NCBI GenBank assembly: GCA_902510815.1
Contig: CABXDI010000004.1
Location: forward strand, 1-59,756
Direction: 5' to 3'
From: an uncultured Verrucomicrobiota bacterium
Lineage (GTDB): Bacteria; Verrucomicrobiota; Verrucomicrobiia; Verrucomicrobiales; DEV007
Length of the DNA: 59,756 nt
In this document: positions 50,862-58,885 of the stretch, one piece after another
Layout of the letters: every line of letters starts with the position of its first letter
Position numbering within the stretch: position 1 is the first letter of the stretch
Position numbers and translations under genes: made by a program
The notes under the pieces: model-generated
Database searches by the model: none
What the model was told of the DNA's origin: nothing
The model's input: the letters and a program-made list of their open reading frames with translations, nothing else

Positions 50862-52217
50862 TTATCTATTTATTGGCATAGCCGCCTGAGATTCTGACAG
50901 TAATGACTTTAATTTATTTTTGAGCCTTAAAGCCAATTTAGGCAACTCACCAGATAGATCATTATTCTCACCGATGTCTTCTTTGAGATTATAAAGTTCT
51001 ATACTATTGTTATCATAAAAATAGAGCAGCTTGTAATCCCCCTCACGAATTGCTGAACCGAGACGATTATCACGATGAAAAGCAAAATTTGGATAATGCC
51101 AAAAGATAGCTCTATCCTTCAATTTTTTTCCATCATTTAGAAGAGGTAATAGATTCTCCCCATCAATAGGGTAATTAACATCAGAACTCAGTCCTGATGC
51201 CTCTAGAATAGTTGGATATAAATCAGTCAGTATGACAGGCGTTTCATCTAATGTTTCAGGTTTAACTTTTCCTGGCCATCTAATGATAAGTGGCACCCTA
51301 ATCCCTCCCTCATAAAGGTGTCCTTTATCTGCTCTCAGCGGGCTCGCATCACCAACTCCTCCGAAAGGACCATTATCAGAGCTGAAAATAACTAGCGTTT
51401 CATCAGCTATTTTCAAATCATCTAATGAATTTAAAACTTTTCCAACAGCATTATCCATAGCCTCTATCATAGCCGCATACCGATAATCTCTATATCCACG
51501 CACTGGCAAATTCTTATATTTTTCTAATAAATCTGCAGGTGCTTCCATAGGCCAGTGAACCGTATAATTCCACAAAGCGACAAAAAATGGCTTCTTTTTC
51601 GATTGCTGCTCAGTGATGAATGCAATGGTTTCATCTGCCAAACGATCTGGTAGATACTCTCCTTTTTTTCTATTTGGTAAAAAATCAATTCTGTAAGGAT
51701 CAAAAAAAGTAGGAGGCCCCCCATAAGAACACCCCCCTATATTGACATCAAAACCTTGGTTAAGAGGATTATATTTTTCATTTTTTCCTGTGTAAAGATG
51801 CCATTTCCCAATAAACGCCGTAGCGTAACCTGCATCCTCCTTAAGCTTTTCTGCCAGCGTAATATACTTCAAAGGTAAATGATTAATCATTTTAGCCGGA
51901 AGAAGCCTTGAGCTTTTTGGAGTAAATCTGTCTTGATGCGGTAAATGATTCGTAATTTGAAGCCTAGCAGGAGATTGCCCTGTCATTATGGAAGCACGAG
52001 TCGGAGAGCAAACAGGAGCAGGAGCATATGCATCAGTGAAACGAATTCCATCTTTTGCAAGAGCATCAATATTTGGCGTATGAAGATTATCATTACCCTG
52101 GCACCCAAGATCCATCCACCCCATGTCATCAATAAGAACAAAGAGTATATTCGGTCTACTTAATGATATTGATGAAATGAATAATAAAAAAATAAATGTA
52201 CTAAGGATTAGCTTCAC
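50862..52217 (-). CDS. Exported sulfatase (arylsulfatase-like)
   Basis: 451 residues. A signal peptide (1-19, ending near SLS-RP) is followed by RPNILFVLIDDMGWMDLGCQG, the metal-binding motif, and the formylglycine site Cys70 in PVCSPTRASIMTGQSPAR (CxPxR). Substrate and metal segments: TAFIGKWHL, FFVALWNYTVHWP and FSSDNGPFGG. The order and DDMGW opening match the common arylsulfatase A-like type of marine PVC bacteria. It sits between tadA (56 bp upstream) and an ABC-F gene (6 bp downstream), an unusual place for a catabolic gene. Substrate unknown. Confidence 0.92.
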   Translation of the reverse strand: MKLILSTFIFLLFISSISLSRPNILFVLIDDMGWMDLGCQGNDNLHTPNIDALAKDGIRFTDAYAPAPVCSPTRASIMTGQSPARLQITNHLPHQDRFTPKSSRLLPAKMINHLPLKYITLAEKLKEDAGYATAFIGKWHLYTGKNEKYNPLNQGFDVNIGGCSYGGPPTFFDPYRIDFLPNRKKGEYLPDRLADETIAFITEQQSKKKPFFVALWNYTVHWPMEAPADLLEKYKNLPVRGYRDYRYAAMIEAMDNAVGKVLNSLDDLKIADETLVIFSSDNGPFGGVGDASPLRADKGHLYEGGIRVPLIIRWPGKVKPETLDETPVILTDLYPTILEASGLSSDVNYPIDGENLLPLLNDGKKLKDRAIFWHYPNFAFHRDNRLGSAIREGDYKLLYFYDNNSIELYNLKEDIGENNDLSGELPKLALRLKNKLKSLLSESQAAMPINR

Positions 52218-55991: not shown

Positions 55992-57086
55992 ATGAAACCC
56001 TCAAAAATAAGAGCATTAGTATTAGATAATTTCGTTTATAAAACAACGATTCTGTTACTAGGGTTCTGGGTAATAATTCTGACAAATAAAAAAAGGCCTA
56101 TACTGAAGAATGCAGGTGACCCTCCAAAAACTATAATTATTGAACCTATCAAAAATTCAAAAGAAACTTTTAATCCTGAAAAGGAAATTAAGAAACAGGG
56201 TAATAAATCATTAAGTACAGAAGAAAAAGAAAGAGAACTTATTTCAAAGGTCCTCACAAATTCATTTAAAGATTCCAAAAAGAAAAACAGTAAAACCATC
56301 ATTGAAGAACCCATAATCCAAAATTCCACAAAAATTGTAGATGAAGAAGCAAACAAACTTTTAGAAGTAATTGAAATTGGAAGAACACTAAGGGAAAACG
56401 GAAAAACTCTTGAATCATTAAAAGCTTTTAGGGAAGCAAAAAATCTTTTTCCAAATAAATTGATTCTCATGTGGGAACTTCATCTAACCTATGAAGCAAT
56501 GTCTCTTCATGAAAAATCTAGAAACGAATTAAATAATATACTCGCCATTGGTAAAGGTGAGAGAGGCGAATACTGGGAAATGGCTGAATTAAAAGTAATG
56601 GTAGATGATGGAAGGAAAATACAAAAAATAGGACAGCGATTGTTATTTGGAAAAGTAATAGAATCGTCTCCAATCAATCAAGAGAAGGGTGAAACTATAT
56701 TAATAAAAATGGAAATAATTTCTAAATTAAAGGATTCAATTGACGTTAAAGACATCACTCTAATATTAGAATTTTATGATATTGTTAACGATTCTGAAGT
56801 TCAGCCAACATTGTCTGATCAGCCAAGTGCAACTTGGAAAACAAGCCCAGTTAATTGGGAATCAGCAAACACAGAAATTGTTGAGTGGAAATATTATTTA
56901 CCGAATGTTTCAATGGCTGAGAAAAAAATACACGAAAAAAGAAAATACTATGGTTTTGTTGCAAGATTATACTACAAAGATTTGCTTCAGGACATTTATG
57001 CCAAACCAAGAATTTTATTAGAACCAAAACAATCTTTAAATAGATCATTTATTGATAGCTCTTTATTTCCTCCTGAAAACAACTAA
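55992..57086 (+). CDS. Membrane-anchored TPR-like protein of unknown function
   Basis: 364 residues. A hydrophobic segment (about 18-31, TTILLLGFWVIIL) is followed by a Lys/Glu-rich, probably disordered stretch (to about 115) and a helical hairpin with TPR spacing (about 120-190, LLEVIEIGRTLRENGKTLESL then AFREAKNLFPNKLILMWELH). The last part (about 210-345) is beta-rich (ETILIKMEIISKLKD, DITLILEFYD, EWKYYLPNVS) and matches no family I know. It overlaps the next gene by 35 bp, which indicates joint translation with the pseudokinase-FGE fusion. Topology suggests the bulk is periplasmic, though cytoplasmic location is possible. Confidence 0.7.
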   Translation: MKPSKIRALVLDNFVYKTTILLLGFWVIILTNKKRPILKNAGDPPKTIIIEPIKNSKETFNPEKEIKKQGNKSLSTEEKERELISKVLTNSFKDSKKKNSKTIIEEPIIQNSTKIVDEEANKLLEVIEIGRTLRENGKTLESLKAFREAKNLFPNKLILMWELHLTYEAMSLHEKSRNELNNILAIGKGERGEYWEMAELKVMVDDGRKIQKIGQRLLFGKVIESSPINQEKGETILIKMEIISKLKDSIDVKDITLILEFYDIVNDSEVQPTLSDQPSATWKTSPVNWESANTEIVEWKYYLPNVSMAEKKIHEKRKYYGFVARLYYKDLLQDIYAKPRILLEPKQSLNRSFIDSSLFPPENN

Positions 57087-58854
57087 TCTAATTATTAATG
57101 CAATTGATCACCAGACAGAAGTTATTGATGCCATTTGTGAAAAGTTTAGTAATTCAAAAAATCTCTTATTTCCAAAGATCGAATCTTCAGAAAGAAAAAA
57201 TTGGGTGCGAAAAAATATTGCTATAATTTTTGACGATCATGAAAATTCTATAGAAATGAATTCATCACCAGAGCATATTTCAGATGACTTAGAGGATGAA
57301 AATGTTCCACTCGCCAATATTCTGACAGCGCAGGGAAAAAAAATTGGTGATTACGAATTAACCCGATTTTTAAAATCAGAAAACGAGACTGAAATTCATG
57401 TAGCATTACAAATTTCAATTAATAGAAAAGTATCGTTAACTCTTTTAAAGCGCCACTTAACTCAATCCACAACATCTATAGAAAATTTTCGTGAAACGGT
57501 ACGTGCAAAAGCAAAAGTCTCTCATCCAAATATTGCTGCAGTTTATGAAGGCCATGAAGATGATGGGTATTTATTCTACACAAGCGAACTCATGAATGGG
57601 CAGAGTCTAGAAAACGCAATAGATTACGGTATAAAGTTCAACCAAGGACAAATTATTAGCCTTCTGAAAGTTATAGCAGACACACAAATATACCTAAAAA
57701 GCAATCAAATACCTCATACTCCACTTCAGGCATCAGATATTTATATCAATTCAGATGGAACAACTCGAATTGCTAACACTGCGACTAAAAATCACAGAAA
57801 CATTCAATACGATAAGTTAAACATCAAATACCTAATTAAATCTACTAAACATCTAGTCGAAAAAAATATAGATCCTAAGATTTCATCTTTTTTAAATAGC
57901 CTTTTAAACAGCACCGATACATTAACATGGGAAAGGTTTGCAGAAAAAATATCAAGTTACGAAAATCAGATCTCAAACACTATTGAAAATAGTTCTGTAG
58001 AACCAGAAAAGAAAACCGTCCATTTTTTTCTGGCTTTAGGTTCCTTTGTTCTAATTATCACCACTTTAGGAATATTATTAAATGTTGATCGGGATAAATC
58101 AGAAATATTTACAAATACAAATCAAGATCTAATGATTAGAATTGATGGTGGAGAATTCATTTATCAAAATGGAGAAATTAAAATACTTCCTACTTTTTGG
58201 ATTGATAAATATGAAACCACTATCTCTGAGTACAAAACCTTTCTAGATGCTATTAAACTTGATGACATTGGTAAATATAAGCATCCTGAACAACCTGTAG
58301 AAAAAATTAGTCATAAACCAAAATATTGGGACCAATATTTCAAAGCCGCAAAACTTGGCGGTACATTCTCTGGTCATCATATTTCACTAAATTCACCAGT
58401 AATTTATGTAGATTGGTGGGACGCATACGCATATGCAAGGTGGAAAGGCCGAAGACTCCCTACTGAAGAAGAATGGGAAAAATCAGGGAGAGGCAAAACT
58501 GGTAACCTTTATACGTGGGGAAATGATTCTCCTAAAGATTCTAAAAAATCTATAAACAATAATTTTACAAAATGGATAGATGTTCATTTAATTCATCGTG
58601 ATCTTACAAAAGACGGAATCGCTGGACTCATGAGCAATGTATCTGAGTGGACTATAACCTTGGAAGAAGACCCAGAAATTATTGGTAATTCAGTTCCTGT
58701 AATTCGTGGCGGAAATTTTAAATCAAGCAAACAGGATCCGAACCAATTGTTAGACCGAAAAGCCGTTGAAAATAGGAGTTTTAAATCAGAGTTAATTGGT
58801 TTTAGAACGTTAACTGATATCAAGCCTCGATTTAAATTTGATATTTCTAAATAA
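57052..58854 (+). CDS. Pseudokinase fused by a TM helix to a cysteine-less FGE/SUMF1-like domain
   Basis: 600 residues from TTG 57052; the true start may be an internal non-ATG codon, since no ATG comes before residue 68. An unassigned acidic N-terminus (1-95) precedes a Ser/Thr kinase fold (about 98-310) with its landmarks altered: the Gly loop is FLKSENETE, the beta3 Lys position is Thr130 (VSLTLL instead of VALKVL), the HRD motif is HTP (222-224) and the DFG is NTA (242-244). A TM segment (323-345) leads to a formylglycine-generating-enzyme-like domain (about 360-600) with DGGEFIYQNG, RRLPTEEEWEKSGRG, SNVSEW, RGGNF (552-556) and GFRTL. The conserved catalytic Cys pair after RGG is missing; no Cys occurs in the domain. 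Likely a structural or sensing protein rather than an enzyme. Confidence 0.8.
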   Translation: MIALYFLLKTTNLIINAIDHQTEVIDAICEKFSNSKNLLFPKIESSERKNWVRKNIAIIFDDHENSIEMNSSPEHISDDLEDENVPLANILTAQGKKIGDYELTRFLKSENETEIHVALQISINRKVSLTLLKRHLTQSTTSIENFRETVRAKAKVSHPNIAAVYEGHEDDGYLFYTSELMNGQSLENAIDYGIKFNQGQIISLLKVIADTQIYLKSNQIPHTPLQASDIYINSDGTTRIANTATKNHRNIQYDKLNIKYLIKSTKHLVEKNIDPKISSFLNSLLNSTDTLTWERFAEKISSYENQISNTIENSSVEPEKKTVHFFLALGSFVLIITTLGILLNVDRDKSEIFTNTNQDLMIRIDGGEFIYQNGEIKILPTFWIDKYETTISEYKTFLDAIKLDDIGKYKHPEQPVEKISHKPKYWDQYFKAAKLGGTFSGHHISLNSPVIYVDWWDAYAYARWKGRRLPTEEEWEKSGRGKTGNLYTWGNDSPKDSKKSINNNFTKWIDVHLIHRDLTKDGIAGLMSNVSEWTITLEEDPEIIGNSVPVIRGGNFKSSKQDPNQLLDRKAVENRSFKSELIGFRTLTDIKPRFKFDISK

Positions 58855-58885
58855 AAAGCCGGCACCCAAAATGGATACCGGCTTT
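58855..58885 (+). terminator. Hairpin terminator after the pseudokinase-FGE gene
   Basis: AAAGCCGG (58855-58862) pairs with CCGGCTTT (58878-58885) around a 15-nt loop with a minor CC/GG inner pair. It begins at the base after the stop codon. The short T-run (TTTATAAATT) is moderate, but the stem is G/C-rich and it may also serve the converging pilin gene. Confidence 0.7.

Follow-up and report, generated by a model that had tools for sequence, protein, structure and literature searches.

The locus and reading frame of c0

The stretch of DNA analysed here, referred to as the window, comprises 59,756 nucleotides from an uncultured Verrucomicrobiota bacterium. Below, c0 denotes the pseudokinase–FGE gene, c1 the partner gene located 5′ of it, and c6 a gene for a secreted protein that is often found next. 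The features at the locus are the following.

55992..57086, + strand: partner gene c1, 364 residues, directly upstream of c0 (from a profile and adjacency counts)
57052..58854, + strand: c0 open reading frame as first called, 600 residues from a TTG; true start uncertain
57087..57216, + strand: residual part of an N-terminal receiver (REC)-like domain, from comparison with relatives; the preceding segment is missing relative to the nearest congener
57334..57975, + strand: pseudokinase domain (residues 95–308), substituted at the β3 Lys, the catalytic Asp and the DFG Asp and without a Gly loop
57775..57777, + strand: codon of Asn242, in place of the DFG Asp
58018..58083, + strand: transmembrane helix (residues 323–344), from the structure model and comparison of members
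58129..58830, + strand: FGE-fold domain (SUMF1-like, C-type-lectin fold), predicted to be periplasmic, catalytic Cys pair absent
58855..58885, − strand: 14-bp terminator-type hairpin between c0 and a convergent pilin-like gene (one found, against 1.3 from shuffled sequences)

The preliminary description, made from the window alone, began c0 at TTG 57052. The frame does exist on the plus strand, but this start is doubtful, as the TTG falls within c1, whose open reading frame ends at 57086. Nucleotide alignment with the nearest congener (locus L022 of genome G002, 68% amino acid identity) reveals that 151 nucleotides are absent from the window, from the c1 stop to the third receiver strand, with the junction at about 57085–57087. 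The missing segment corresponds to the c0 ATG and the first ∼48 receiver codons (β1-α1-β2), and it is this loss of the start codon and half of the receiver, by deletion or assembly error, that renders the TTG unreliable. Alternative in-frame starts are GTG 57205 and ATG 57256. The gap represents either a true N-terminal deletion of the species or a misassembly in a metagenome-assembled genome that is 54% complete; the pseudokinase, transmembrane and FGE parts are untouched by it.

In the relatives, c0 begins just past the stop of the preceding gene with a receiver-like domain, which in one of them (L038) is a clear match to Response_reg (Pfam E-value 5.7e-11). The architecture of the family is receiver–pseudokinase–transmembrane helix–FGE fold, of which the last three parts had been recognized while the receiver, its half-deletion and the loss of the start in the window had been overlooked. 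The phospho-Asp position, read by eye, is occupied by N, S, T or E in the receivers of the relatives, the domain of the window being half-deleted. Where retained, the receiver appears to be mostly Asp-less, and one whole family has lost it.

An AlphaFold2 model of c0, built with 36 natural relatives, predicts that both domains fold confidently, with pLDDT mostly >90 for residues 95–308 and 360–590. Structural comparison by VIA gave Z-scores of ∼20 for the kinase half against the active Ser/Thr kinases PknB and PknA, and of 20–24 for the FGE half against FGE, SUMF2, EgtB and PorK. The two domains are parted by a single predicted hydrophobic helix (FFLALGSFVLIITTLGILL), found at the same place in 47 of 48 family members, consistent with the membrane-spanning topology proposed earlier.

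The pseudokinase and FGE-fold domains

Residues 124–241 of c0 match Pkinase (PF00069) with a Pfam E-value of 3.8e-8 (33.5 bits, cut-off 31.7). Alignment with ∼50 relatives places Thr130 at β3, HTP (222–224) at HRD and NTA (242–244) at DFG, in agreement with the preliminary description, as is the absence of the Gly loop (DYELTRFLKSENETEIH). The β3 Lys, HRD Asp and DFG Asp expected of an active Ser/Thr kinase are therefore T130, P224 and N242 in the window, whose lineage also lacks the catalytic-loop Asn. Among 48 aligned family members every one has Asn for the DFG Asp (48/48), 47 have another residue for the catalytic Asp and six retain the β3 Lys. The 20 members sampled from the class's other families have all lost both the catalytic Asp and the DFG Asp (the latter to Asn in 18 and Gly in 2); the β3 Lys is retained in 11 of them and a Gly loop is recognizable in several. 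Both Asp losses are common to homologues from other orders of the class. No shifted catalytic residues were found in these 48 + 20 aligned members, the sole exception being L011, which has an Asp at the HRD position but is without the other two catalytic residues. GLW at the place of HRD, by which the GLW pseudokinases are recognized, occurs in none of the relatives examined, and the window has HTP. On the simplest order of events suggested by these alignments, loss of the two Asp residues preceded the radiation of the class, and decay of the ATP pocket followed in certain lineages, including that of the window; members from other families that keep the Lys or the Gly loop might still bind nucleotide.

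In a maximum-likelihood tree rooted by midpoint only, 43 kinase domains of the family are separated by a branch of support 100/99 from the phylum's active kinases, of which 30 were included. Together with the profile searches, this indicates that the inactive forms make up one separate clade conserved across related genomes. The genome of the window also encodes an intact-looking kinase–transmembrane–FGE fusion (L102, 152–2782, on contig C45 of G000), which resembles c0 in general order and differs from it by its GxGxxG, AVK, HRDxxxxN (HRDIKPSN) and DIG motifs. Its FGE part lacks the Cys pair, and its kinase, one of the 30 in the tree, clusters with the active kinases, far from the c0 family, so that dead and live architectures coexist in one genome. 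A plasmid search for active full-length relatives returned no match spanning 80% of the query, the matches being to the FGE half only.

The C-terminal domain (residues 376–586) matches FGE-sulfatase above the cut-off, with a Pfam E-value of 8.7e-28, and shares the fold of canonical FGE (SUMF1; Z ∼22), but lacks its Cys pair. That the domain is free of cysteine holds for the window copy, which has none, but not for the relatives, which mostly have 1–3 and never the catalytic pair; the pair after RGGxW/F is missing from the alignment of the whole family. A role for c0 as sulfatase maturase was rejected, as it had been in the preliminary description, given the canonical Cys-pair FGE encoded separately in congeners: three relatives, two of them congeners, have a separate protein with RGGSFLC[SN]EGYC, and the true FGE of the genus, likewise a separate protein, carries RGGSFLCSEGYC (cf. 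L170–L172). In the incomplete genome of the window only three FGE-sulfatase matches were found, none of them with the Cys pair.

Two further observations concern FGE domains and their substrates. The window contains a sulfatase with a CSPTR motif (50862–52217) that would require formylglycine maturation; a Cys-pair FGE for it was found in congeners and not in the incomplete window genome. Locus L099 (G000, contig C9) combines a CxxCH haem-type motif with an FGE domain lacking the Cys pair.

It had been proposed that both enzymes of c0 have decayed while their folds persist. This is borne out for the kinase half, and for the persistence of both folds. Decay of an FGE is unsupported: many FGE folds lack the Cys pair, and in other families such folds are already non-enzymatic (PorK, PMC12421860). 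FGE-like would seem a better name for this half than decayed FGE.

Conservation and partner genes

Of 143 genomes of the order Verrucomicrobiales, profile searches found c0 in 132 (E ≤ 1e-60) and c1 in 142. The two lie side by side on the same strand, c1 directly upstream, in 125/132, and the seven exceptions include at least two contig ends. Inspection of five genomes with no c0 hit at this threshold revealed a weaker c0 beside c1 in three; the other two, G391 and G399, have c1 with no c0 beside it, which suggests that c0 is dispensable in some genomes. In G391 (L103, 4402–7133) c1 is directly followed by c6 and amiC, a natural loss of c0 from a cluster otherwise kept. One genus, probably Akkermansia, has several small genomes (L104, L105, L106, L107 and L113) in which the FGE domain of c0 is degenerate or shortened, and c1 and c6 remain. 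Across a sample of the class, c0 is present in 121 of 286 genomes, many families outside Verrucomicrobiales among them. This distribution indicates that c0 is no isolated fusion in decay and belongs to an ancient protein family of the class Verrucomicrobiae.

The c1 product is predicted to consist of an N-terminal transmembrane helix, a long low-confidence linker, TPR-like helices and a C-terminal Ig-like β-sandwich. It matches no Pfam family above the cut-off, and its fold gave no Foldseek match under an E-value of 0.001; the VIA Z-scores of its parts (∼11 for TPR, ∼7 for Ig-like) may reflect only a common arrangement. Nor does the secreted c6 protein match Pfam. The preliminary description overlooked a conserved cluster around c0. 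In several families the recurrent order is pabB (on the opposite strand), c1, c0, c6, Amidase_3 (AmiC-type) and a YjeF/Nnr-like gene, and parts of the c1-c0-c6-amiC-nnr arrangement are also seen in further orders of the class. In the genus of the window, c6-amiC-nnr is intact as a separate cluster at another locus. Pfam identified the amidase; the names pabB, YjeF/Nnr, ThiL, TsaE and TsaB were assigned by inspecting the sequences by eye.

Possible roles of the c0 protein

The residues, the fold, the clade and the fixed gene partner lead us to favour, with some confidence, a reading of c0 as a non-catalytic transmembrane scaffold or receptor of a class-wide receiver–pseudokinase–transmembrane–FGE family, its periplasmic FGE fold binding an envelope partner. 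The predicted topology would have the cytoplasmic pseudokinase present a protein-binding surface, while the FGE-fold domain would engage a partner in the envelope, most likely the c1 product with its transmembrane, TPR and Ig-like parts and, in many genomes, also the c6 secreted protein. The protein probably serves the cell envelope as a scaffold or sensor. A link to the maintenance of peptidoglycan and the envelope may be drawn from the ancestral neighbourhood of the N-acetylmuramoyl-L-alanine amidase gene and by analogy with MviN.

Among known systems, the MviN pseudokinase of Mycobacterium tuberculosis (ActPs3) resembles c0 as a cytoplasmic pseudokinase within a membrane protein in which three motifs are degraded (PMC12599244). 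Its VALT at β3 is comparable to VSLT in c0 of the window, and the bulky aromatic residues filling its nucleotide pocket (PMC12599244) recall the aromatics at the floor of the adenine pocket in c0. In both proteins a transmembrane region follows the pseudokinase, the extracytoplasmic domain of MviN being of carbohydrate-binding type (PMC12599244). Loss of all three motifs and a transmembrane segment C-terminal to the pseudokinase, two of the features by which ActPs3 is recognized (PMC12599244), are both seen in c0. ActPs3 is further marked by an actinobacterial lineage and a constraint pattern of its own, and the genomes with c0 are Verrucomicrobiae. However, MviN is multi-pass and indispensable for peptidoglycan synthesis, and is a non-catalytic regulator of cell-wall metabolism (PMC12599244), whereas c0 has a single transmembrane helix, an FGE-type outer domain and a receiver in front, and belongs to another phylum. 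EssB/YukC of the T7SSb is likewise a membrane-anchored pseudokinase with degraded catalytic motifs and Gly loop, which serves as scaffold of a membrane complex (PMC12599244); it is confined to Firmicutes and has no FGE domain, while c0 has no type VII secretion context. The FGE half finds its counterpart in PorK/GldK of the type IX secretion system, an FGE fold without the two catalytic Cys residues (Z 20.2), whose groove in PorK has been repurposed as a structural hub for docking a partner protein (PMC12421860); there PorN fills the groove. PorK/GldK differs in being an outer-membrane-associated ring protein of Bacteroidota without a kinase domain. Verrucomicrobia and FGE domains go unmentioned in a recent review that lists seven bacterial pseudokinase families (PMC12599244), and nothing specific to the FGE–kinase family was found in the literature.

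Alternatively, the FGE half may be mainly a sensor of a ligand, such as a glycan or peptidoglycan fragment, that signals to the pseudokinase, as opposed to a structural hub. In favour of this, the C-type-lectin fold includes the FGE domain as a subtype (PMC10907252), the topology is like that of PASTA-type kinases with an outer sensor, and the order REC–pseudokinase–transmembrane–FGE is receptor-like. However, a conserved ligand pocket was not identified, no output domain is known, and the near-constant neighbour c1 favours a protein partner, and we regard this alternative as credible though rather unlikely.

It is improbable that the window copy is the decaying pseudogene of a formerly active kinase–FGE fusion. 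Relative to the nearest congener it lacks the start codon and roughly half of the receiver, and the kinase triad and FGE Cys pair are absent; yet no stop interrupts the remaining frame, both domains retain the residues invariant in the family, inactive orthologues are maintained throughout the class, and the deletion may itself be a misassembly. Over 203 codons compared with the nearest congener, dN is ∼0.20 and dS 0.81–1.37 (dN/dS ∼0.15–0.25), which, with the wide conservation, indicates that this copy is under purifying selection and no decaying relic. For the family, recent pseudogene formation, which the preliminary description had named as the finding that would overturn it, was rejected given a frame conserved class-wide, even though the window copy does carry the N-terminal deletion.

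We likewise consider it improbable that the kinase fold has a non-canonical activity (cf. AMPylation by SelO) with Asn242 standing in for Asp. The invariance of this Asn and the persistence of the β3 Lys and Gly loop in roughly half of the members sampled from other families of the class would be consistent with such an activity. In the lineage of the window, however, the Lys, the Gly loop, the catalytic Asp and the catalytic-loop Asn are all gone, and the floor of the adenine pocket (the position of PKA Leu173) is filled by Phe, Tyr or Trp in 40/48 members, compared with 1/30 active kinases. That the FGE half is an enzyme of another chemistry, an EgtB- or SenA-like sulfoxide or selenoxide synthase, is most improbable: although both are among the best NCBIfam and structural matches, the scores are 61.5 and 52.1 against curated cut-offs of 360 and 420, and the match is limited to the FGE-like part of the profile and does not extend over its full length.

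A more speculative reading, to which we attach a low probability, is that c1, c0 and c6 form an envelope complex specific to the class Verrucomicrobiae that controls septal or peptidoglycan remodelling through a wholly non-catalytic c0. The adjacent AmiC-type amidase would then be an example of a controlled target, and the DFG Asp of c0 would have been replaced before the class radiated.

The c0 family is large, ancient and near-universal in the order, which appears to hold the gut genus Akkermansia and Verrucomicrobium spinosum, and its partner gene c1 is even more widespread. It unites in a single membrane protein two 'dead enzyme' folds known as scaffolds, the pseudokinase and the Cys-less FGE. 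Genetic tools and a saturated transposon library are available for V. spinosum (PMC12283558), making the function of c0 directly testable.
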